Of a stretch of 35,679 bases of DNA, positions 3,828 through 14,295 are shown piece by piece (the stretch's first letter is position 1; each line of letters begins with the position of its first letter). A program made the translations under genes and the position numbers. Below the pieces are notes generated by a model. The model did no database searches. It was not told the DNA's origin and worked only from the letters and a program-made list of their open reading frames with translations. Origin of the DNA: Actinomycetota bacterium (lineage in GTDB: Bacteria; Actinomycetota; Thermoleophilia; Gaiellales; Gaiellaceae); contig VAYM01000151.1 of assembly GCA_005884945.1 (NCBI GenBank), positions 1 through 35,679 of the forward strand, in the 5' to 3' direction.

Positions 3828-4463
3828 CTAGGACCTGTGGCGTGCCGCGTAGATCGCGGCCTGCGTCCGGTCGGCGACGCCGAGCTTTCCGAGCACGTGC
3901 GTGACGTGCGTCTTGACCGTCTTCTCGGCGAGGCCGAGCTCGAGCGCGATCCGCTTGTTCGAGAAGCCGCGGCCGATCAGCTCCAGCACTTCGCGCTCCC
4001 GCGGCGTGAGGCTCTGCAGCTGGTCGCGCCCGTCGTCCTCGGCGAGCCGCTCGACGAGCCGTGCCGCGACCGACGGGTCGATCAGCGCCTCGCCCGCGTC
4101 GGCCGCGCGGATCGCACGGGCGAGCTCCTGCGGCTCGGCGTTCTTCAACAGGTAGCCGGCCGCGCCCGCGCGAACCGCAGGGAGGAGGCGATCGTCGTCG
4201 ATGTAGCTCGTCAGGATGATCACCCGTGTCTCCGGCACGCGCTCGCGGAGCGCGCGCATCGCCTCGACGCCGTCGAGCTTCGGCATCACGAGGTCCATCA
4301 GGACGACCGCAGGCCGCAGCTGCTCGGCGAGCGCGACCGCTTCGGCGCCGTCCGCGGCGTCGCCGACGATCTCGATCCCGTCCTGCAGCTCGAGGAAGCT
4401 GCGCAGCCCCTCGCGCAGGACGGCGTGGTCGTCCGCGATCAGGACGCGGATCGGGTCAGACAT
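3828..4463 (-). CDS. NarL/LiaR-type response regulator
   Basis: The protein has 211 residues. The receiver domain spans residues 5-120, with acidic pocket DD (11-12), phospho-acceptor Asp57 (VVLMDLVMP), the Thr of LTS and Lys107 (LLKN). A LuxR-type helix-turn-helix (residues about 148-205) begins LTPREREVLELIGRG and contains NKRIALELGLAEKTVKTHV. It should act as a DNA-binding transcription regulator once phosphorylated by the kinase encoded immediately upstream, whose stop codon it overlaps by 8 bp. It is last in the LtrA-kinase-regulator operon. Its binding site is unknown. Confidence 0.95.
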   Translation of the reverse strand: MSDPIRVLIADDHAVLREGLRSFLELQDGIEIVGDAADGAEAVALAEQLRPAVVLMDLVMPKLDGVEAMRALRERVPETRVIILTSYIDDDRLLPAVRAGAAGYLLKNAEPQELARAIRAADAGEALIDPSVAARLVERLAEDDGRDQLQSLTPREREVLELIGRGFSNKRIALELGLAEKTVKTHVTHVLGKLGVADRTQAAIYAARHRS

Positions 4464-5580
4464 CGAGGTGCACCGTCGTCCCTTCGCCGCGTGACGAGCG
4501 GATCTCGAGCCGGCCGCCGATCCGCTGCGCGCGCTCCTCCATCGACGTCAGTCCGAGCCTGCGTGCGCGCAGCTCGACGGACTGCGGGTCGAAGCCGATG
4601 CCGTCGTCGACGACGTCGAGCGCGAGCTGCCCGTTCTCGCCGCTGAGTCGGACGACGACGCGGCTCGCCTCCGAGTGTCGCAGCGCGTTCTGCATCGCCT
4701 CCTGCGCGATGCGGAAGACCTCCGCGTCGCGCCGTGGGTCGGGCGTGAGCTCGAGGTCGCCCTCCATCACCACGTCCGCGGACTGGACGCGCCGCAGGAC
4801 GTCCACGTGCTTGCGCAGCGCGCCGCAGAGACCGTCCTGCACGAGATCCGGCGGACGCAGCTCGAAGATCAGCGAGCGCAGCTCGTCGAGTGCCTGGCGC
4901 GCGATCGCCTGAAGCTTCGCGATCTGCCCGCGTGCCGCGACGGGATTCCGGTCGAGCAGCGTCGCCACGGTCTCCGCGGTAAGCACGACGCTGTAGAGCT
5001 TCTGGCTGACGACGTCGTGGAGCTCGAGCGCCAGCCGGTTGCGCTCGGAGACGACGGAGAGCTCGCGGCTCTGCTCGTACAGGCGCGCGTTCGTGATCGC
5101 GATCGCCGCATGCGATGCAAGGAGCTCGATCAGTTGCTCGTCGAGGACGCTGAACTCCGGCGCGCGTTCCTTTTCCGTCAGGTAGAACGCGCCGATCACT
5201 CCATCGCGCGAGACGATCGGCACCCCGAGGAACGAACGCATGTCGGGATGACCGCGCGGCCAGTACCCCGTGAAGCGCGGGTCGTCGTGGATGTCTGTCG
5301 TGCGGAACGGCTCGCGCGATTCGAGGATCGCGCCGAGCATCCCGTGCGTGCGCGGGAGCGGGCCGAGGGAGGCAATCAGCTTGTCGCTCATCCCGGAGGT
5401 CAGGAACGCGCTGAAGCCGCCGTCGCCGTCCGGCACGCCGAGCGCCGCGTAGCGCGCGTCGACGAGCGTGCGCGCGTTCTCGACGAGGCGTTGCAGGACC
5501 TCCTCCGTCGACAACTCGCCGCCGATCGCGAGCACAGCGTCGCTCACGGCCTTGAGCGCGGGGCTGAGCGGCTCGGTCAT
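4456..5580 (-). CDS. Soluble GAF-domain sensor histidine kinase (NarL-type partner)
   Basis: The protein has 374 residues from ATG 5580 and no transmembrane segment. A GAF domain covers about residues 25-170, followed by a short coiled linker and a HisKA_3 dimerisation domain with phospho-accepting His188 (ALELHDVVSQKLYS). A HATPase domain covers about 280-374, with N-box NALRHSEA and DDGIGFD. It resembles the DevS/LiaS group, which passes phosphate to LuxR-type regulators. Because it lacks a membrane anchor, it either senses a cytoplasmic signal through GAF or works with the LtrA-like membrane protein just upstream, whose stop overlaps this start (ATGA). It overlaps the regulator gene by 8 bp. 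A longer open frame exists upstream of 5580, but it lies within the LtrA gene and is a shadow. Confidence 0.93.
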   Translation of the reverse strand: MTEPLSPALKAVSDAVLAIGGELSTEEVLQRLVENARTLVDARYAALGVPDGDGGFSAFLTSGMSDKLIASLGPLPRTHGMLGAILESREPFRTTDIHDDPRFTGYWPRGHPDMRSFLGVPIVSRDGVIGAFYLTEKERAPEFSVLDEQLIELLASHAAIAITNARLYEQSRELSVVSERNRLALELHDVVSQKLYSVVLTAETVATLLDRNPVAARGQIAKLQAIARQALDELRSLIFELRPPDLVQDGLCGALRKHVDVLRRVQSADVVMEGDLELTPDPRRDAEVFRIAQEAMQNALRHSEASRVVVRLSGENGQLALDVVDDGIGFDPQSVELRARRLGLTSMEERAQRIGGRLEIRSSRGEGTTVHLDV

Positions 5581-6764
5581 CCGTTCACGCTCAGCAGCGT
5601 CCGCTCGACGTACACGACGACGATGAGGACGCCGGCGAGAGCCGCCGCCACCGCGACGGGTGGCAGCCCCGACTGCACGGCGAGAACGAGGAGGATCGCG
5701 GCCACGGCGACCAGCTTGAGCGTGACGCCCGCGCGATGCGGTCCGCCGACGACGACCGTCCGCGTTCCGATCAACGAGAGGAGGAAGAGGACCGCGCCGC
5801 CGAGCAGCGCGACACTCGGGCCGGCGCCGAGGTGGTCCTCGTGTGCGCGCTCGATCAGCAGGCGCAGGCCGGCTCCCATCGCAGCGAGCCCGATCAGCAG
5901 TGGGATGTGCGCATAGGAGTAGACGACGACGGACATCGTCGAGCCGCGAAGAGCGACGCTCTCCTGCCGGTCGTAGTAGAGCCACCACACGGCGGCGACG
6001 GCTGCGAACCCGAGGACGCCGGCGGCCGCGGAGACGAACCGCCAATTCGTGCCGGAGGTTTGCAGCGCGACGGCGGCGACCGACTCGCCGAGGACGATCA
6101 GCGTGAAGAGCGCCCAGCGTTCCGGCAGGTGGGTCGCGCTCGTCGGGATCCGGCGGTGCAACCGGGTCGAGAGCGGCGGCAGGCTGAGCTCGAGAACCTG
6201 TGCAGCGCCCCAGAACCAGTAGCGGTACGGCGTCGTCACCGCGAGTGACGCGAGCCAGATCCCGACGCCGACGCTGTAGCCGAGGCCGTAGAAGCGGACG
6301 AGCGGTCGCGCCTCCGGAACTGCGCGCCACGCCCGTGCGTAGAGCGCAAGCATGAGGGAGCGGAGAACGACGTACGCGACTGCGAAGGCCGCGGTGTGAA
6401 CGCCTCGCGCGACATCGGCGATGAGGACCGCCATCGCCGCAATCGCGAGCATGGCGGCGAAGTAGGTGAGTCGGAACGCAAGGTCGTCCGTGTCGAAGCG
6501 CGTCGCGTAGGCCATGTAGCCCTGCCACGCGACGTACACCGGAACGAAGAGTGCGGCGAAACGGAGGAACCCGAGGGCCGAGTGGTCGAGGACGAGCAGG
6601 CGCGAGAGCTCCGTGATCGCGACGACGAAGACGAGGTCGAAGAAGAGCTCGAGCCAGCTCGCGTGGCGCTCCGAGTCGCGATCGTCGGCAGTGCGAAGCC
6701 GCGGCGGGACGAGCCAGGGCGCGCGCCCGTTCGTTCCGACCGGCTCGCCGACTCGGATGCCCAT
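5577..6764 (-). CDS. LtrA-like (low temperature requirement A) polytopic membrane protein
   Basis: The protein has 395 residues, taking ATG 6764 as the start because TACGCT lies exactly 7 nt before it. A GTG at 6794 is the alternative. The family signature is clear: HASWLELFFDLVFVVAITELSRLL near residue 25, then about ten hydrophobic helices, and PERWALFTLIVLGESVAAVA in the middle, which is the conserved GE motif of LtrA. LtrA proteins are membrane proteins of unknown biochemical role, first linked to growth of Listeria at low temperature. Here the gene is the first of an operon with a histidine kinase and a response regulator, with a 4-bp overlap. This raises the possibility that LtrA supplies the membrane input for the soluble kinase. 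Confidence 0.9.
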   Translation of the reverse strand: MGIRVGEPVGTNGRAPWLVPPRLRTADDRDSERHASWLELFFDLVFVVAITELSRLLVLDHSALGFLRFAALFVPVYVAWQGYMAYATRFDTDDLAFRLTYFAAMLAIAAMAVLIADVARGVHTAAFAVAYVVLRSLMLALYARAWRAVPEARPLVRFYGLGYSVGVGIWLASLAVTTPYRYWFWGAAQVLELSLPPLSTRLHRRIPTSATHLPERWALFTLIVLGESVAAVALQTSGTNWRFVSAAAGVLGFAAVAAVWWLYYDRQESVALRGSTMSVVVYSYAHIPLLIGLAAMGAGLRLLIERAHEDHLGAGPSVALLGGAVLFLLSLIGTRTVVVGGPHRAGVTLKLVAVAAILLVLAVQSGLPPVAVAAALAGVLIVVVYVERTLLSVNG

Positions 6765-6777
6765 CGCATTCAGCGTA
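6765..6777 (-). promoter_or_regulatory. Leaderless promoter -10 of the LtrA-kinase-regulator operon
   Basis: TACGCT (6777-6772, minus) is followed by 7 nt and ATG 6764, with no Shine-Dalgarno sequence. The same hexamer and spacing recur before the MFS gene starting at 15971. Confidence 0.5.
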
Positions 6778-6846
6778 ACCCGCGACGGCGTCACACTTCC
6801 GTCACGGTGCCTGGCACCGCGGCTGGCAGCCGGGTGGAGGGACAGG

Positions 6847-7602
6847 TCAGGTGCGGACGGTCACCGCCCGCAGCTTGTCCGGATTCGCGATCACGTCGAT
6901 CTCCGCGATCCGACCGCCGGACACGGTGAACCCGACGACCGCGATCGGCCGGTCGCTCGGCATCACGATCACGCCCGCGCTGCCGTTGACAATCGCCGGC
7001 CGCCCGAGCGGCGCGAACATCCGGCCGCGCGTCAGGATCTGCGCCGCGACCGCCTCGGCACCGTGAACCGCCTCGCGGTCGCGCGCGCGCGTGTCGATTC
7101 GGAACACGACCTCCGGGTCGAGCACCTCGATCAGCGCGTCGAAGTCGCCGCTGCGAGCCGCAGTGAGAAACGCGTCGACGACGCGTCGCTGCTCCGCGAG
7201 GTCGGGATCCGGCGTCGGCGCCGCGCACTGCACGCGCCGACGCGCGCGGCTCGCGAGCTGCCGCGTCGCCGCAGGCGAACGTCCGACGATCGGCGCGATC
7301 TCCTCGAACGGCATGGCGAACATGTCGTGCAACACGAACGCGAGCCGCTCCGCCGGCGCGAGCGTATCCAGCACGACGAGGAGTGCGGCGCGCAGCATGT
7401 CGAGGCAGACGCGCGCGACGACCGTCGTGAGCCAGCCGCCGAGGTTTGCAACGGCGCCGGTGTCCGCACGGTCCAGCCGCAGCCAGGCTTCCTGAACTGC
7501 GTCCTCGGCCTCGTTGACCGACCCGAGCATGCGGTACGCGACCGCCTGCAGGTGTCGCCTGTGCCGCTCGAACTCCCCCGTCAACACGTCTCGCTCGTTC
7601 AC
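6847..7602 (-). CDS. ECF41/SigJ-type sigma factor with SnoaL-like C-terminal domain, linker missing
   Basis: The protein has 251 residues from GTG 7602, with GAGAGG nine bases upstream. Region sigma2 (YRMLGSVNEAEDAVQEAWLRL ... GWLTTVVARVCLDMLRA) is followed directly by sigma4 (ALLVVLDTLAPAERLAFVLHDMF ... IVGRSPAATRQLASRARRRVQ). In ECF41 and SigJ proteins these are normally separated by about 40-50 residues, including a WLPEP motif, and that whole linker is absent here. The C-terminal SnoaL-like domain (residues about 135-251) keeps the NPDKL motif but has no recognisable DGGGR motif. The family is thought to be controlled by this domain rather than by an anti-sigma factor. Promoters of exactly the ECF41 type lie upstream, so the gene is probably autoregulated. 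The missing linker could be biological or an assembly deletion. Confidence 0.85.
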   Translation of the reverse strand: MNERDVLTGEFERHRRHLQAVAYRMLGSVNEAEDAVQEAWLRLDRADTGAVANLGGWLTTVVARVCLDMLRAALLVVLDTLAPAERLAFVLHDMFAMPFEEIAPIVGRSPAATRQLASRARRRVQCAAPTPDPDLAEQRRVVDAFLTAARSGDFDALIEVLDPEVVFRIDTRARDREAVHGAEAVAAQILTRGRMFAPLGRPAIVNGSAGVIVMPSDRPIAVVGFTVSGGRIAEIDVIANPDKLRAVTVRT

Positions 7603-7603
7603 C

Positions 7604-7630
7604 CGTCACATCCTCTCGTTCACATCCGTC
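7604..7630 (+). promoter_or_regulatory. ECF41-type promoter driving the ABC exporter
   Basis: CGTCACA (7604-7610), 16 bases, then CGTC (7627-7630). The ECF41 consensus is TGTCACA-N16-CGTC, so only the first base differs. Transcription would start near 7637 and reach the exporter ATPase ATG at 7676, which has AGGAGG at 7665-7670. Confidence 0.6.
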
Positions 7631-7638
7631 ATCCATCT

Positions 7639-7665
7639 GACGAGCGGAACACCACGGATGTGACA
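7639..7665 (-). promoter_or_regulatory. ECF41-type promoter driving the sigma factor itself
   Basis: On the minus strand, TGTCACA (7665-7659), 16 bases, then CGTC (7642-7639): a perfect match to the ECF41 consensus. Its start site near 7632 faces the opposite promoter. A 10-bp inverted repeat (7620-7629 with 7654-7663) spans the same region and partly reflects the paired sites. Confidence 0.7.
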
Positions 7666-7675
7666 GGAGGACGAG

Positions 7676-8608
7676 ATGATCGAAGTACGCAAGCTCAGGA
7701 AGATCTACCCCGGCGGCGTCGAGGCGGTCAGCGGGATCGACTTCGACGTCGAGCCGGGCGAGGTCTTCGGACTGCTCGGGCCGAACGGCGCGGGCAAGTC
7801 CACGACGATCGGCATGCTGACGACGACCGTCGCGCCGACGAGCGGGACGGCCAAGGTCGCCGGTTTCGACGTCGCGAAGCACCCGCTTCCGGCGCGGCGC
7901 GCGAGCAGCGTCGTGTTCCAGGAAGCCGTCGTCGACCGCTCGCTCACCGGACGGCGGAACCTCGAGATCCACGCCCGCCTGTGGGGCGTCGACGAGCGCG
8001 AGTCGAAGGCGCGGATCGACGAGCTCGCCGCGACGCTCGACCTCGCCGAGCTCGTCGACCGGCCCGTCGGCTCGTACAGCGGCGGCGAACGGCGGCGGCT
8101 CGAGATCGCCCGCGCGCTCGTGTCGGGCCCGCGGGTGCTCTTCCTCGACGAGCCGACGGTCGGGCTCGACCCGCTGATCCGCGCCGAGCTCCTCGACGCG
8201 ATCGCCGGGCTCCGGGGGCGAACCGAGATGACGGTGCTCGTCACCACGCACTACCTCGACGAGGCCGAGCGCCTCTGCGACCGCGTCGCGATCATCCACT
8301 CCGGTCGGATCGTCGCGCTCGACACGCCGGCGGCGCTGCTCTCGGAGCTCGGCCCGGAGATCCTCGAGCTCCGCGTCACCGGCAGCGCGCATGCGGCAGC
8401 CGACGCGCTCCGTGCGAGAGGGATCGCCGGCGACGAGGCGTTCGCGGTCGGCTCCACGTTGACGATCCCGCTCCGCGACACGAGCTCCGGCGAGGCGATT
8501 GCAACGGTCACCGACCTCGGCATCGCCACCGCGATCAGCACGCGACAACCAACCCTCGACGACGTCTACCTGCGGTTGACCGGCGATCGGCTCGCCGCAG
8601 CCGCCTGA
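7676..8608 (+). CDS. ABC exporter ATP-binding protein, DrrA-like
   Basis: The protein has 310 residues, with AGGAGG five bases before ATG 7676. Walker A GPNGAGKST is at residues 35-43, followed by the Q-loop (VVFQEAVVDRSLTGRRNL), signature YSGGERRRLEIARAL, Walker B VLFLDEPTVGLD and the switch His in VTTHYLDEAE. The extended C-terminal domain (about 220-310) ends in LDDVYLRLTG, which is typical of the daunorubicin-resistance (DrrA) subfamily of drug and lipid exporters. The permease follows ten bases after the stop. An ECF41-type promoter directly upstream links its expression to the divergent sigma factor. The exported substrate is unknown; 'daunorubicin' is only a family name. Confidence 0.93.
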   Translation: MIEVRKLRKIYPGGVEAVSGIDFDVEPGEVFGLLGPNGAGKSTTIGMLTTTVAPTSGTAKVAGFDVAKHPLPARRASSVVFQEAVVDRSLTGRRNLEIHARLWGVDERESKARIDELAATLDLAELVDRPVGSYSGGERRRLEIARALVSGPRVLFLDEPTVGLDPLIRAELLDAIAGLRGRTEMTVLVTTHYLDEAERLCDRVAIIHSGRIVALDTPAALLSELGPEILELRVTGSAHAAADALRARGIAGDEAFAVGSTLTIPLRDTSSGEAIATVTDLGIATAISTRQPTLDDVYLRLTGDRLAAAA

Positions 8609-8618
8609 AAGGAGAGCC

Positions 8619-9455
8619 ATGTCTGCAGCAACTGCAACGGCCACCCTGCCCGCGCTGAGGCGAGCCCGGGCCTTCAGCTCGCTCGGCACGCTGACGGGAC
8701 GACGGTTTCAGCTCACCGCCCGCACGCCGCGCGAGCTCTTCGTCCCGCTCTTGACGCCGATCATGTTCGCGCTGGTGATCGCACCGGCGCTCAAGTCGGC
8801 GCTGCACACGAACGCGAGCTACGAGTCGTTCGTCGCGATCGGGACCGTTGGACTGCTGATCCCGCTGAACACGATGTTCTCGGGGCTCGGCGTGATCGTC
8901 GACCGCGAGAACGGCGCGCAACGCGAGCTGCTCGCGGCGCCGATCCCGCGCTCCCTGCTCGTGCTCGGAAACCTCGTCGTCGCGTTCGCGATCACGGGCC
9001 TCCAGGTCGCGGTGCTCATCGCGGTCGCTACGGTGCGAGGGATCAACTTCGATCCGACCGCGACCGGCGTGCTGTGGTTCGTCGCGGCGGCCGGTCTCTT
9101 CGCGATCGGCATGTACGGCATCGCGGAGATCCTCGCGAGCCGGGTGCCGCGGCAGGAGGAGTACATCGCGCGTGTTCCGGCGATCGCGATCCTGCCGTGG
9201 TTCCTGGCGGGGGCGCTGTTCCCGATCACGGCGTTGCCGACGGGGCTCACGTGGGTCGCGAAGTTCCTGCCGCTGACGCACGGGCTCGCGCTGATGCGCT
9301 ACGGCCTGCTCGGAGACAGCACCGGCCTGCACAACATCTGGGGCGGGATGGGTTCGACGGCGTCGGCGGCGCTCAGCCTCGCGGTGCTCGCCGGCTTCGC
9401 GCTGATCCTGACGGCCGGTTCGATCCGCGTCTTCACGCGGGCCGCGCTCCGCTGA
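8619..9455 (+). CDS. ABC-2 type exporter permease, DrrB-like
   Basis: The protein has 278 residues, with AAAGGAGA a few bases before ATG 8619. A cytoplasmic N-terminus (residues 1-40) is followed by six hydrophobic helices in the ABC-2 pattern (FVPLLTPIMFALVIAPAL, IGTVGLLIPLNTMFSGLGV, VLGNLVVAFAITGLQVAVLIAVA, LWFVAAAGLFAIGMYGIAEIL and two more). The conserved ERENG-like segment (DRENGAQRELLAAPIPR) lies after the second helix. It forms the membrane half of an exporter with the preceding ATPase, probably as a 2+2 complex. A strong hairpin eight bases downstream ends the operon. Confidence 0.92.
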   Translation: MSAATATATLPALRRARAFSSLGTLTGRRFQLTARTPRELFVPLLTPIMFALVIAPALKSALHTNASYESFVAIGTVGLLIPLNTMFSGLGVIVDRENGAQRELLAAPIPRSLLVLGNLVVAFAITGLQVAVLIAVATVRGINFDPTATGVLWFVAAAGLFAIGMYGIAEILASRVPRQEEYIARVPAIAILPWFLAGALFPITALPTGLTWVAKFLPLTHGLALMRYGLLGDSTGLHNIWGGMGSTASAALSLAVLAGFALILTAGSIRVFTRAALR

Positions 9456-9462
9456 TGAAAGG

Positions 9463-9494
9463 AGAAGGGTCAGACCTTCCGGTCTGACCCTTCT
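9463..9494. terminator. Bidirectional hairpin terminator; palindromic element, copy B
   Basis: The 14-bp perfect stem AGAAGGGTCAGACC / GGTCTGACCCTTCT has a TTCC loop. It sits between two converging genes, the exporter permease (plus, ends 9455) and the small secreted protein (minus, ends 9500), and can serve both. Its core is nearly identical to the element at 2041-2060. Confidence 0.7.
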
Positions 9495-9499
9495 TCGAG

Positions 9500-9688
9500 C
9501 TACGCGTTCGAACTGTTGTGGGGACAGTTCGAATGTGAGCCGTTCGACTGGGTCGTCGATGTCGTGGTCGTGTTCGAGGACTTCGAGCTGTTGCCGCCGG
9601 CGGCGAGGGCAACGCCCACACCGGTGCCGCCGAGTGCGAGCGCGGTGGTGACGGCTGCGACGGCGACGCTTCGACTGGGTCGGAACAC
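9500..9688 (-). CDS. Small secreted Ser/Thr/Asn-rich protein
   Basis: The protein has 62 residues from GTG 9688, a start fixed by a strong AAAGGAGGT just upstream. It begins with a signal peptide: basic FRPSR, hydrophobic VAVAAVTTALALGGTGVGVALA, with a likely cut after ALA-A-GG. The mature peptide is only about 30 residues, almost all Gly, Ser, Asn and Thr, and ends HSNCPHNSSNA with a single Cys. I recognise no family. The low-complexity tail resembles a linker or an envelope-associated peptide. It sits downstream of the FtsX/ATPase operon, but an array of 11-bp direct repeats 47-101 bp upstream suggests separate control. A longer frame starting at 9724 lacks a ribosome-binding site. Confidence 0.6.
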   Translation of the reverse strand: MFRPSRSVAVAAVTTALALGGTGVGVALAAGGNSSKSSNTTTTSTTQSNGSHSNCPHNSSNA

Positions 9689-9734
9689 GGGACCTCCTTT
9701 CTGGTCGGGTGCGCTCCCATGCAACCGTCGGCGG

Positions 9735-9789
9735 CTAAGAGCCGGACAAGACCTGTCTAAGAGGTCGGTGAAAAGTTCCTAAGAGCCGG
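9735..9789 (-). promoter_or_regulatory. Array of five 11-bp tandem half-sites
   Basis: Five consecutive 11-bp units start at 9735, 9746, 9757, 9768 and 9779. Each has a TAAGA-like core at positions 2-6 (plus strand: TAAGA, CAAGA, TAAGA, TGAAA, TAAGA), and the first and last units are identical over all 11 bases. Head-to-tail 11-bp spacing is the hallmark of OmpR/PhoB-type regulators. The array lies 47-101 bp upstream of the small secreted protein, an activator position, and runs into the last codons of the ATPase gene. Confidence 0.5.
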
Positions 9790-11293
9790 CGTCCAGCACG
9801 AGGCACTCGTCGGCCGCGGCGACGAGGTCGGGGTCGTGACTCGCCGCGACGATCGTCGTTCCGCCCTCGCGGGCCGCCGACTCGAGCAGCCGGATGATCA
9901 TGCGACCCGAGAGCCGGTCGAGGTGCGCGGTGGGCTCGTCGGCGAGGAGGACTCGCGGGCCCGGCGCCAGCGCGCGCGCAAGCGAGATCCGGCGTTGCTC
10001 CCCGCCGGACAGCCGGTCCGCGCGCCGGTCCCCGAGCTTGTCGAGGCCGACCCACTCGAGCCAGCGGTCGGCGCGGCGACGCGCTTCGATCTCGTCGAAG
10101 CCGCGCAGGGTCAACGCAAGCTCGACGTTCTCGCGCGCCGAGAGGAAGTCCACGAGCGTCGAATGCTGCGAGACATAGCCCAGGACGCGGCGACGAAAAC
10201 GCGCGGCCTCGTCTCCGTCCAGCGAGTCGACGCGCTCGCCTCCGACCCACACTTGCCCGTCGTCGGGACGGTCGAGCGCCGCCTGCAGGTTCAGCAGCGT
10301 CGTCTTGCCGCTCCCCGACGGGCCGGCGATGACGTGCAGGCGCTCGGGCGCAAATGTCCACGACACCCCCGACACGACCGACTGCTCCCGCTTGCCGTAC
10401 GACTTCGTCACTCGATCGAGCGCGATCTCGGTGCCGCGTTTCTCCTGCGGCTCGAGGCGGCGCTCGGGGACGGACGCTCTCGTCGGCCGTTCGGCAAGTA
10501 GCTCCACCTTGCCCCACGTCGCCTGCGCGCGGACCCGTTCTCCGACGCCGGCCTCTTCGCGCACTGCGCGCGGGAGACGAAGCCAGCCCTGCTCGTCGAC
10601 GATCAGCACCGGTCGCGTCGTCCCCTCGGCGGCGAGCCGCCCGTCCCGGATGTGGATCGTCCGAGCACAGGCTGCTGCCACGGTCGGGTCGTGCGTGACG
10701 ATCAGCGCCGCTGCGCCTGCTTCGCGCGTGAGCTCGAGGAGAAGCGACACGACCGTGCGTGTCGCCGCGGCATCGAGCTCGCCCGTCGGTTCGTCCGCAA
10801 GTAGCAGCCGTGGTCTCTTCGCGAGCGCCGCACACACGGCGACGCGTTGTTGCTCGCCGCCGGACAGCTCGGCCGGACGCGCGCGCGCCCGCTCCACGAG
10901 CCCGGCTGCACGCAACAGCGCGGTGACGCGAGCGGGATCGGACCGGCCGAGCAGTCGGAGCGGCATGCCGACGATCTCAGCCACGCTCAGGTCGTGGGGC
11001 AACGACAGGTGGTAGTGCTGCCGGACGATTCCGATCGACGTTCGGCGCACGCGCGAGAGCTCGCGGCCGGAAATCGCTCCGAACGCAGAGCCGAGGACGT
11101 TGAGCGATCCGCTCGACGGGCGTGCGAACCCCGCGCAGAGCGCGAGCAGCGTCGTCTTGCCGGAGCCGCTGGGCCCGAGCACAGCAACGCTCTCGCCCGC
11201 CGCGACCTCCAAGGACAGACCGCGCAACGCGGCGACGTCACCGTGCGCCTGTCGGTACAGGTGAAACAGGTCGTCGGCGCGGACGGCGCTCAT
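9779..11293 (-). CDS. Double ABC ATPase with an AbrB-like segment between the two domains
   Basis: The protein has 504 residues from ATG 11293, overlapping the permease stop by 4 bp (ATGA). The first nucleotide-binding domain has Walker A GPSGSGKT (40-47), LSGGEQQRV (143-151) and ADEPTGELD (166-174). The second has Walker A GPSGSGKT (324-331), LSGGEQRRI and ADEPTAHLD. Both belong to the MacB/LolD group that powers FtsX-type permeases. Residues about 228-266 (VLIVDEQGWLRLPRAVREEAGVGERV ...) read as a SpoVT/AbrB-like swapped-hairpin unit, a DNA-binding fold elsewhere. Having both ATPases in one chain fits the single large permease. The role is probably mechanotransmission or lipid/peptide handling; the substrate is unknown. 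Confidence 0.88.
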   Translation of the reverse strand: MSAVRADDLFHLYRQAHGDVAALRGLSLEVAAGESVAVLGPSGSGKTTLLALCAGFARPSSGSLNVLGSAFGAISGRELSRVRRTSIGIVRQHYHLSLPHDLSVAEIVGMPLRLLGRSDPARVTALLRAAGLVERARARPAELSGGEQQRVAVCAALAKRPRLLLADEPTGELDAAATRTVVSLLLELTREAGAAALIVTHDPTVAAACARTIHIRDGRLAAEGTTRPVLIVDEQGWLRLPRAVREEAGVGERVRAQATWGKVELLAERPTRASVPERRLEPQEKRGTEIALDRVTKSYGKREQSVVSGVSWTFAPERLHVIAGPSGSGKTTLLNLQAALDRPDDGQVWVGGERVDSLDGDEAARFRRRVLGYVSQHSTLVDFLSARENVELALTLRGFDEIEARRRADRWLEWVGLDKLGDRRADRLSGGEQRRISLARALAPGPRVLLADEPTAHLDRLSGRMIIRLLESAAREGGTTIVAASHDPDLVAAADECLVLDAGS

Positions 11294-14200
11294 GCGCGCA
11301 ACCTCGCTGCGGGTGGCTCGCGCAGGGCTCGTCCCGAAACGAACGCGGCCGCCGCGAACGTCGCTGCGATCAGTGCGGCGAGAACCCCGGCTGCGGCCGG
11401 CCACGCGACGACGGCCACGATCGGCGGCAGCGGATTGCCGGCCGTGCCCGTGACCGCGACGAATGCGCTCACGAGCAGCACGCCGAAGACGCCGCCGAGC
11501 ACGCCCGCACCCAGACCGATCGACGACACGACGAAGACGCGGAGCTGCGCAGCGCGCCGTAGCGCTCGCGGTGAAACTCCCAGCGCCTCGTACTCCGCGA
11601 GCACGAGCCGCTCCGAGGCGAGCGTCGAGCGCGTCGCGAGCACGAGGCCGACGAATCCGAGCGCCGCAGCGAGCACGCCCGCCACTGTGAGCACCTTCCG
11701 CGTGCCTGCTGCGAGCGGATCGTCGCGCAGCCGTCGTTCGGCGGCCGCGACGTCGAGCGCCGTGCGCGCCGGACGTGGCCCAGTGAACGACCAGGCCTCC
11801 GTCGGCACCGCGAGCCCGGGCTGGTCCGCGTTCAGTGCGGCGAAGAGCGTGTCGTAGTCGATGACCACGAAGTCGTGCGGATCGTTCACGATCGAGGGGA
11901 AGAGACCCGCACGCCCGACGAGATGGAGCGGGACCGCCTTGCCGGCGACGACGAGCGTGACGAGGCCGTTGACCGCCTGGTCCGCGACGGGCCGGGATGC
12001 GAGCGCGGAGAGCTCGCCGATCTGGAACCCGGGCGAGGGAGGCGGCAACCCTGCGGCCGGATGGACGAGCGGCTGACGCGTGCCGTTGACCCGGAAGCGG
12101 ACGCCGCGTGCAACGGGTGCATGTGCGAAATGGCTCGCAAACAGGATTCCACTCGTGCCGTCGGGGGCGATCGTCGGCTTCCAGGAAGCGATCGACGGGA
12201 GCGCCGACCAGCCGCTCCGGCGTCGTTGCTGGAACGAGCCCAGGTCGACGAAGCCCTCCGGGTCGTACTTGAACGAGATCGGCGTTTGCGTCGCTTCGTA
12301 CTGGACGGCCACGAGCCGCGCTCCGTCCAGGCTGCGCGGAACGCGCGCGCGCAGCAATCGCCAGTCGTGCCACACGGCACCGAGGCTCAGCTGCGCGAAC
12401 CGCTGGTTCGCCAACAGGAAGTCGAGGACGATCAGGCGAGGAAAGTCCGTCTGCGCGCGTGCCCAGACGCGCAAGGTGCGCGCATCGTCCGCGAGCGCCG
12501 GACCGGTCAACCTGATCGCGCTCGGACGCAACCTCCGTGCAATCGCCGCCCGCGACGGATCGGCGAAGCTGTCGCGCCAGCCGAGGACGTCGGTGATCCG
12601 CTTCGCCGGGATTGCGAGTACGCGGACCTGGAGCTCCGCGCCTGCCGGGTCGGTCTCGTTGACGTCCCCGGTCAGACGCATCACCGGAGCGGCGTGGCCG
12701 AACCTCACGCCCGCGACGCTGCGGCCGGTCATCCGCCAGTTCGCGCCAACTGCGAAGCGCGCCTGGTCGTGCGCCTGCCGGTCGATCGTCGCGCGGTAGT
12801 TGAGGCTGAACAGCGCGCTGCCGAGCGCGACCGCGAGGAAGGTCGTGGCGGCGGCCGCGTGGCCGGGACTGCGGGCGGCGTTCAGGAATGCGAGCCTGAT
12901 CAAGGGAGCTCGGCGGCCCAGGCGTTCGCCGAGACGAAGCGTCAAGGGCACGACGCGGAGGAGGAGGACGCCCGTCGTGAAGAACACGAGCGCCGGCGCG
13001 AGCAGGACGACGGGCGCCGTCCCGTTGCGCGCGACCTCGTCCGGCGTCAGCGCGCCCGTCGTGGACATCTGCCACACGATCAGGCCGAGCGCGACGAGGG
13101 CGCTGAGCTCGAGGCCGCCGAAGCGCGCACGTACGTCGCGTGCCGTCTGCGAAACCAGCAGGAGACCGCCGCCGGCGACGCCCACGGCGACCATCACGAC
13201 GATCGTCCGCGATGGAAGCGCCCCGCGCACGAAGCCGATCGGGAGACCGCGCGTGTGTCCGACGACGAGCGCCGCGACGGCGATCGCCGCCAGCGCGAGC
13301 ACCGTTCCGACCACGGCAGGGGCGAAAACCTCGGCTGCGCGTGCAATGAAGACCTGCGTGCGGCCGGCACCGAGGTCGGTCAGCTGCTCCTCGACGAGCT
13401 TGGACTCGCGTCTTCGTGCTGTCGCAAGGAACGCGGCGAATGCGACGACGAGCGCAGCCGCCTCGCCGGCGACGATCAGCAAGCGCTCGCGGGCGACGTC
13501 GCCGCGATGGGTGAGATCGCGGAGGACGCCCAGCGGCGCGTGCGCGCGGACGAGTGGGTCGCTGCGCTCGAGCTCCGCGATCGTCACGCGCAGTCGCTCG
13601 CGGACGTTGCCGAGCGAGAACGCGTGCACGCGTCCCGGATCGAGTGCCGCGGTCGTGGCCACCGTGCTGGCGTGCTCCGCCACGATCGCCCGTAACCGAG
13701 GCGATAGGGAACGAACGAGCAGCGCCTGCTGGCCGAGCTGGGTGCGGTCGCGAACGAGCCCGGGTCGGAGCGACCCGCGACCGACGATCGTCGCCGTCAC
13801 GTGCGGGCCGAGCGGCACCCGGGAGCCGACCGGCTCGCTCCCGGTCAGCGCAAGCGCCTCGCACCTCGCCCCGGCGCACGACGAAGGCAGACGTCCCGCG
13901 TGCGCTGCGACGTCGGACGAGGGATCGTCGGCGAGCACGATCCGCGTTCCGAGTGGATTGTTCGGGACGATCGAATGCCAGATGCGGATGCGGTGGATCG
14001 GCCCGGTCACGTCGCCGAAGCCGCGAACGGCGTCCGTCACCGTCGGGGCGCGAAAGTCGGCCTCGGGCGGGACGGTGAAGTAGACGACCTCGAGCGCCCG
14101 CTCGCCGGGCGGCAGCCGCGCAAGGTGGGCTCGCACGCTGTCCTCCTGCGCCGTCGCGGCCGTGAGGCTGCTCCACCCGATCAGCGCCGCGGCGCCGCCG

Positions 14201-14295
14201 AGCGAGAGGACGAGAGCGAACGTCGACAGCGGCCTCGTGCGCAGGCGGCGCCAGGCAAACGCGATCGGAGTTCCGGCGGCTCGAAACCGCTTCAT
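11290..14295 (-). CDS. Large FtsX-type ABC permease
   Basis: The protein has 1001 residues from ATG 14295. A first helix at about 23-46 is followed by an extracellular domain of about 220 residues containing CAGARC (probable disulfide). A membrane block of about six helices follows (LLIVAGEAAALVVAFAAFLA onward), then a second extracellular domain of about 330 residues. Three C-terminal helices follow (VLTVAGVLAAALGFVGLVL, FVVSSIGLGAGVLGGVFGVLL, VAWPAAAGVLAALIAATFAA). This is the ten-helix, two-domain layout of duplicated FtsX/MacB permeases. It is translationally coupled to the double ATPase. TAGCGT lies 8 nt before the ATG, slightly off the leaderless spacing seen elsewhere. Transport direction and cargo cannot be inferred. 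Confidence 0.88.
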   Translation of the reverse strand: MKRFRAAGTPIAFAWRRLRTRPLSTFALVLSLGGAAALIGWSSLTAATAQEDSVRAHLARLPPGERALEVVYFTVPPEADFRAPTVTDAVRGFGDVTGPIHRIRIWHSIVPNNPLGTRIVLADDPSSDVAAHAGRLPSSCAGARCEALALTGSEPVGSRVPLGPHVTATIVGRGSLRPGLVRDRTQLGQQALLVRSLSPRLRAIVAEHASTVATTAALDPGRVHAFSLGNVRERLRVTIAELERSDPLVRAHAPLGVLRDLTHRGDVARERLLIVAGEAAALVVAFAAFLATARRRESKLVEEQLTDLGAGRTQVFIARAAEVFAPAVVGTVLALAAIAVAALVVGHTRGLPIGFVRGALPSRTIVVMVAVGVAGGGLLLVSQTARDVRARFGGLELSALVALGLIVWQMSTTGALTPDEVARNGTAPVVLLAPALVFFTTGVLLLRVVPLTLRLGERLGRRAPLIRLAFLNAARSPGHAAAATTFLAVALGSALFSLNYRATIDRQAHDQARFAVGANWRMTGRSVAGVRFGHAAPVMRLTGDVNETDPAGAELQVRVLAIPAKRITDVLGWRDSFADPSRAAIARRLRPSAIRLTGPALADDARTLRVWARAQTDFPRLIVLDFLLANQRFAQLSLGAVWHDWRLLRARVPRSLDGARLVAVQYEATQTPISFKYDPEGFVDLGSFQQRRRSGWSALPSIASWKPTIAPDGTSGILFASHFAHAPVARGVRFRVNGTRQPLVHPAAGLPPPSPGFQIGELSALASRPVADQAVNGLVTLVVAGKAVPLHLVGRAGLFPSIVNDPHDFVVIDYDTLFAALNADQPGLAVPTEAWSFTGPRPARTALDVAAAERRLRDDPLAAGTRKVLTVAGVLAAALGFVGLVLATRSTLASERLVLAEYEALGVSPRALRRAAQLRVFVVSSIGLGAGVLGGVFGVLLVSAFVAVTGTAGNPLPPIVAVVAWPAAAGVLAALIAATFAAAAFVSGRALREPPAARLRA

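Follow-up and report, generated by a model that had tools for sequence, protein, structure and literature searches.

A symmetric face-to-face ECF41-type promoter predicted to serve both a SigJ-like sigma factor gene and a DrrAB-like exporter

The intergenic gap of 73 bp (7603-7675) that separates a SigJ/ECF41-like sigma factor gene from the genes of a DrrAB-like exporter contains a 60-bp symmetric element, which, judged from its sequence, is very probably a two-way promoter read by RNA polymerase carrying a SigJ/ECF41-type sigma factor. Such a promoter would autoregulate the sigma gene and drive the exporter, the two activities being mutually exclusive. The locus lies in a contig of 35,679 nucleotides from an Actinomycetota bacterium of the Gaiellaceae (GCA_005884945.1, VAYM01000151.1), and this whole stretch of DNA is referred to below as the window; its relevant features are collected in Table 1. 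The layout of the element is far more general than the sigma/drrA pair in which it was noticed.

Table 1. Features of the sigma/drrA locus, in window coordinates.
Feature	Position	Strand	Remarks
Face-to-face dyad, GTCAC-N17-CGTCA-N6-TGACG-N17-GTGAC, 60 bp	7605-7664	.	Read as bidirectional ECF41-type promoter
drrA-directed promoter	7604-7630	+	-35 CGTCACA 7604-7610, N16, -10 CGTC 7627-7630; predicted start G7639
Sigma-directed promoter	7639-7665	-	-35 TGTCACA 7665-7659, N16, -10 CGTC 7642-7639; predicted start G7630
Central 8-bp gap separating the -10 elements (N6 from CGTCA to TGACG)	7631-7638		Phase-locked spacing
Probable Shine-Dalgarno sequence of sigma gene, GAGAGG	7612-7617	-	From sequence; pattern recurs in dyad alignment
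Probable Shine-Dalgarno sequence of drrA, AGGAGG	7665-7670	+
SigJ/ECF41-like sigma factor, 251 aa	6847-7602	-	GTG start at 7602; without sigma2-sigma4 linker
Junction of 111-bp in-frame deletion	7386-7387	-	37 codons; linker including WLPEP region
DrrA-like ABC exporter ATPase, 310 aa	7676-8608	+	ATG at 7676
DrrB-like ABC-2 permease, 278 aa	8619-9455	+
Perfect 14-bp inverted repeat, 4-nt loop	9463-9494	.	Just 3' of drrB; possible terminator hairpin, no T-run

According to Wecke et al. 2012 (PMC3426412), ECF41 promoters mapped by 5'RACE in two species consist of TGTCACA and CGTC (or TGTT) and start at a G, and a wider ECF41 set has a spacer of 16 ± 1. A TGTCACA-N16-CGTC promoter, as goes with ECF41 membership, is present at the sigma locus: the minus-strand site TGTCACATCCGTGGTGTTCCGCTCGTC (7639-7665) matches this consensus exactly and is the only exact match in the window, where 0.04 would be expected by chance. 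The plus-strand site CGTCACATCCTCTCGTTCACATCCGTC (7604-7630) reads CGTCACA-N16-CGTC, with one mismatch. Both sites are thus where the preliminary description had placed them, one perfect and one with a single mismatch, and the length of the intergenic gap and the 8 bp between the -10 elements were likewise confirmed. Single sites with up to two mismatches show no excess over chance within the window, so that the statistical weight comes from the dyad combination, of which approx. 3e-8 exact copies at the window's spacing are expected in 35.7 kb, and from its conservation.

The sigma protein was searched against 61 relatives, among which strong orthologs were found, and the divergent sigma/drrA/drrB arrangement is kept in six genomes (G005, G008, G001, G009, G022, and G030). 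In all seven loci (the window and the six orthologs), GTCACA/CGTCA occurs on both strands, each spacer is N16, and the gap measures 8 bp, while most other intergenic sequence is variable. The conserved blocks are the plus-strand -35 CGTCACAT, the plus-strand -10 CCGTCAT, the minus-strand -10 TGACGA, and the minus-strand -35 TGTGAC; the first base of the sigma-directed -35 varies among the six orthologous loci. The preliminary description had named conservation at orthologous loci as the test of its proposal, and this test came out in its favour, with both motifs in 7/7 loci. Its broader claim, a self-regulated sigma factor that also switches on an exporter, is well supported by sequence, and pairing with DrrAB was seen again across three families. 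Four further orthologs, fetched by protein similarity alone (L038-L041; G030:C163, G040:C39, G049:C132, and G043:C145), have no CGTC -10. Their dyads, with a gap of 9 bp as parsed here, carry changes in both -10 elements: TGTC/TGTC in two, GGTC/GGTC in one, and GGTC/TGTC in one. Paired changes of this kind are as predicted if one sigma factor reads both sites and suggest a shift in -10 specificity, although all four loci lie on one branch of the tree and may reflect a single evolutionary event.

Given the symmetric look of the element, approx. 85,000 species genomes were scanned for the dyad with exact half-sites and a central gap left free between 0 and 20 bp. In the 119 stretches listed, at least 108 matches have N6, compared with at least one with N5, three with N7, seven with N8, four with N9, and one with N14; six of the seven N8 matches derive from one tandem repeat, about ten of the listed matches with other spacings are credible, and the matches are related to one another. 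A SigJ/ECF41-like sigma ORF starts at or near the element in 103 of the 108 N6 matches listed; the five exceptions comprise two at the border of the retrieved DNA and three for which no adjacent sigma gene could be assigned. This linkage extends across phyla, the listed matches including Actinomycetota, Alphaproteobacteria, Acidobacteriota, Chloroflexota, Planctomycetota, Myxococcota, Armatimonadota, and others. Of the 91 targets that could be assigned among the listed matches, 59 are similar to carboxymuconolactone decarboxylases, and others read as FMN reductases, VOC, PNPOx-like, or DUF1059 proteins in addition to DrrA (names other than DrrA come from reading the query sequences, not from profile searches). 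Face-to-face elements with N9, a minor spacing, were seen beside SigJ-like sigma genes in three Rubrobacteraceae (L114, L119, and L137) and in Arthrobacter (L071), and the 60-bp element of Ktedonobacter robiniae (L129, 6028-6087) is almost perfectly palindromic from end to end.

Within the window's own class (399 genomes), the face-to-face element occurs in 22 genomes, and a reversed-pattern control gave no matches in the same set. A back-to-back version was found in only two of the 399 even over a wider gap range and was rejected as an equally common alternative. A DrrAB-like pair is faced by 14 of the 22 class elements, across three families; in five the opposite gene encodes an MFS-type protein read as an exporter (L182, L185, L186, L187, and L189, in place of DrrAB), and in one a decarboxylase. 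The MFS-facing dyads suggest repeated recruitment of efflux genes. In a sample of the phylum drawn by protein similarity rather than by motif, a recognisable dyad was found in about 5-7 of 29 SigJ-like loci; the layout is therefore common but not universal. Two more exact consensus sites in the window's genome (C135 and C175) apparently fall within coding regions, and the overall number of sites is close to chance expectation; a wider regulon in this genome was thus rejected in favour of the likelier case of one local target.

As for the genes themselves, the exporter pair is called DrrAB-like, as drrA and drrB miss their family cut-offs (TIGR01188, 297.9 vs. 312.45; TIGR01247, 69.4 vs. 223). 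The inverted repeat downstream of drrB was not called by a terminator scan. Further along the minus strand (9779-14295), ABC ATPase frames and a 1001-aa permease-like ORF form a seemingly separate exporter cluster. On the other side, at 3828-6794, the minus strand carries genes for an LtrA-family membrane protein and, after it, a GAF/HisKA_3 kinase and a NarL-like regulator. LtrA is encoded downstream of the sigma gene but was rejected as a member of the unit, as its gene is not conserved at the ortholog loci.

How the element might work follows from its geometry. In S. meliloti, the ECF41 start is mapped 9 nt downstream of CGTC (PMC3616915), and a G occupies this start position in pSymB. The same distance, applied to the window, places both predicted starts at G residues about 9 bp apart (Table 1), and not about 5 bp apart, as had been proposed in the preliminary description; each of these G residues pairs with the final C of the opposing -10. 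Polymerase equipped with the SigJ/ECF41-type sigma factor encoded next to the element would read the 60 bp in both directions, transcription in one orientation yielding positive autoregulation of the sigma gene and in the other expression of the target, which in the window is the DrrAB-type exporter. With the -10 elements facing each other across 8 bp, either transcript would begin within the complementary strand of the opposing -10, and a single stretch of DNA would be melted in both open complexes. Coinciding bubbles and almost fully overlapping footprints should, on structural grounds, exclude simultaneous occupancy, so that with one polymerase at a time each initiation would give either more sigma factor or more exporter.

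Whether this circuit still operates in the window's own genome is another matter. ECF41 factors are defined by sigma2, sigma4, and a SnoaL-like C-terminal extension of about 100 aa. In the window protein, sigma2 and sigma4 are present and the C-terminal extension aligns with that of the orthologs; in the nearest full-length ortholog (G005), Pfam SnoaL_2 itself scores below threshold (23.5 vs. 27). The window sigma is shorter (251 aa vs. approx. 290 aa in orthologs), and the entire sigma2-sigma4 linker, kept in the full-length orthologs examined, is absent: Pfam places the end of region 2 and the start of region 4 at residue 72, compared with 75 and 110, respectively, in the nearest ortholog. 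Along with the linker, the WLPEP motif found in many DrrAB-linked orthologs is missing. The C-terminal NPDKL motif (for its role, see PMC7730460) is intact as ANPDKL; the window sigma has no DGGGK-type motif such as occurs in RpoE9. The protein scores 238.4, below the cut-off of 271 bits for the SigJ subfamily (NF007214), while the ortholog from G005 scores above it with 279.9. A sigma factor lacking its linker is unlikely to span both the -10 and the -35. It is therefore conceivable that the sigma gene is decaying and that the promoters are remnants of a dead circuit, a reading that is compatible with a working two-way promoter in the relatives and that we consider to have a nearly even chance of being correct. 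Besides the in-frame loss of 37 codons, it is favoured by the fact that no second SigJ-like sigma gene was found in the window's genome (86% complete), in which the remaining matches are distant. Moreover, in a congener (G004:C205, L044, approx. 7889-8221) the sigma gene is reduced to a C-terminal fragment, and the locus may thus be decaying in the genus. Against it, the sigma reading frame is open, the NPDKL motif is retained, and the dyad, drrA, and drrB are all intact. The linker loss itself may be true or may be a fault of metagenome assembly, and hence the circuit in this genome may be broken, decaying, or misassembled. Given the missing linker, the circuit is best studied in relatives.

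A second alternative shares the promoter reading and departs from the preferred one only at the step of competition. Both sites would be real ECF41 promoters, and the overlap would simply be a compact layout of co-induced genes with negligible competition; this could well be so, although we lean somewhat against it. At E. coli bidirectional promoters, polymerase binding is mutually exclusive, but at basal activity they are too weak for measurable competition, which appears only when activity is raised (PMC12825309). The sigma leader is, moreover, very compact, with the Shine-Dalgarno sequence and start codon of the sigma gene flanking the target-directed -35, which points to packing. However, compactness leaves unexplained why one locked gap value occurs in most lineages. 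In addition, the two -35 elements are not equivalent: among the matches listed, the consensus T is present in 70 of 103 sigma-directed but only 24 of 103 target-directed elements (Fisher p ~1e-10; p = 4e-5 when redundancy is reduced to 59 elements, among which relatedness persists). This bias fits tuned strengths, but its cause may lie in promoter strength, in translation context, or in the two together. Competition between the two outputs that is large enough to be measured is what we infer from the structure of the element, and autoactivation of the sigma factor could lift activity enough for it to appear.

The remaining alternatives concern the promoter reading itself. If only the perfect minus-strand site were used, for autoregulation, the plus-strand site would be a by-product of the ribosome-binding region of the sigma gene, and indeed its -35 carries one mismatch and overlaps the sigma leader. 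This is quite improbable in view of the conservation of the plus-strand -10 CGTCAT and of both N16 spacers in 7/7 loci and of the joint change of both -10 elements in L038-L041. Moreover, no other promoter-like site precedes drrA; a housekeeping-type drrA promoter was rejected, no sigma-70-like promoter having been found in 6700-9700. Least likely, and rejected here, is a binding site for a dimeric regulator with a secondary likeness to promoters: although CGTCA-N6-TGACG is a perfect inverted repeat of typical operator shape, the outer arms are ECF41 -35 elements at the exact ECF41 spacer, and their distance of approx. 50 bp does not resemble a single dimer site. The loci showed no third regulator gene in common (the constant neighbour being the sigma gene), and the one-direction ECF41 promoter of S. 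meliloti has a -35 and a -10 but no TGACG.

Several parts of this arrangement have precedents. The autoregulated ECF41 loci of Wecke et al. 2012 (PMC3426412), which encode a decarboxylase, oxidoreductase, or epimerase (COE), resemble the window in the promoter consensus, in a sigma factor with a C-terminal SnoaL-like extension, and in a single local target. Divergent sigma/COE pairs with promoters on both genes are already published, 55 divergent loci being tabulated with a promoter upstream of sigma in 36 and of COE in 41; overlap, face-to-face placement, and a fixed gap are not described in the sections of that paper covered here. The locus in the window differs in that its target is an ABC exporter and its sigma factor has no linker. 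Indeed, no COE gene is linked to the window sigma, whose neighbour is DrrAB-like, and approx. 30% of ECF41 loci lack a COE gene according to that survey. The RpoE9 (ECF41) locus SMb20029-rpoE9 of S. meliloti (PMC6180224, PMC3616915) has the same promoter, but there a single promoter in one direction serves a COE-sigma operon and there is no dyad. Among solved structures, M. tuberculosis SigJ (PDB 5xe7) is the best relative of the nearest full-length ortholog, from G005 (E = 4e-51, nearly full length), and it differs from the window protein in that the latter has no linker.

Bidirectional promoters are likewise a known class in bacteria (Warman, Grainger and colleagues; PMC12825309, PMC10268837), with a symmetric -10 region and mutually exclusive polymerase binding, as proposed for the window; acrR/acrAB is an efflux example. 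Their divergent starts are commonly 18, 10, or 23 bp apart, and the class is defined by divergent promoters with overlapping core regions and starts about 7-25 bp apart, a range into which the predicted starts in the window would fall at approx. 9 bp if the start distance of S. meliloti applies. Those studied are, however, housekeeping promoters and most commonly have one -10 element in common, whereas the locus in the window has an alternative sigma factor, two complete -35/-10 pairs, and predicted feedback on the sigma factor's own gene. In a partial check of the literature, no description of the fixed face-to-face ECF41 geometry was found.

Taken as a joint reading, for which we see about an even chance, these elements would form a class of phase-locked bidirectional promoters for SigJ/ECF41-type sigma factors, in which two complete promoters face each other across exactly 8 bp, share one melted region, and make each initiation a choice between sigma factor and target. 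The fixed geometry, not a separate regulator, would then set the ratio of sigma factor to target and hold runaway autoactivation in check. By the same reading, this promoter type would span at least seven phyla and would, in the window's class, have been transferred for the most part to genes of exporter type. Widespread as they are, ECF41 factors lack an obvious anti-sigma factor that would restrain their autoactivation. If production of the sigma factor and of its target physically exclude each other, a simple brake on autoactivation would be built in, and the two outputs would be partitioned by the promoter itself. Finally, the exporter targets suggest a role of these circuits in tolerating foreign compounds in the window's class.
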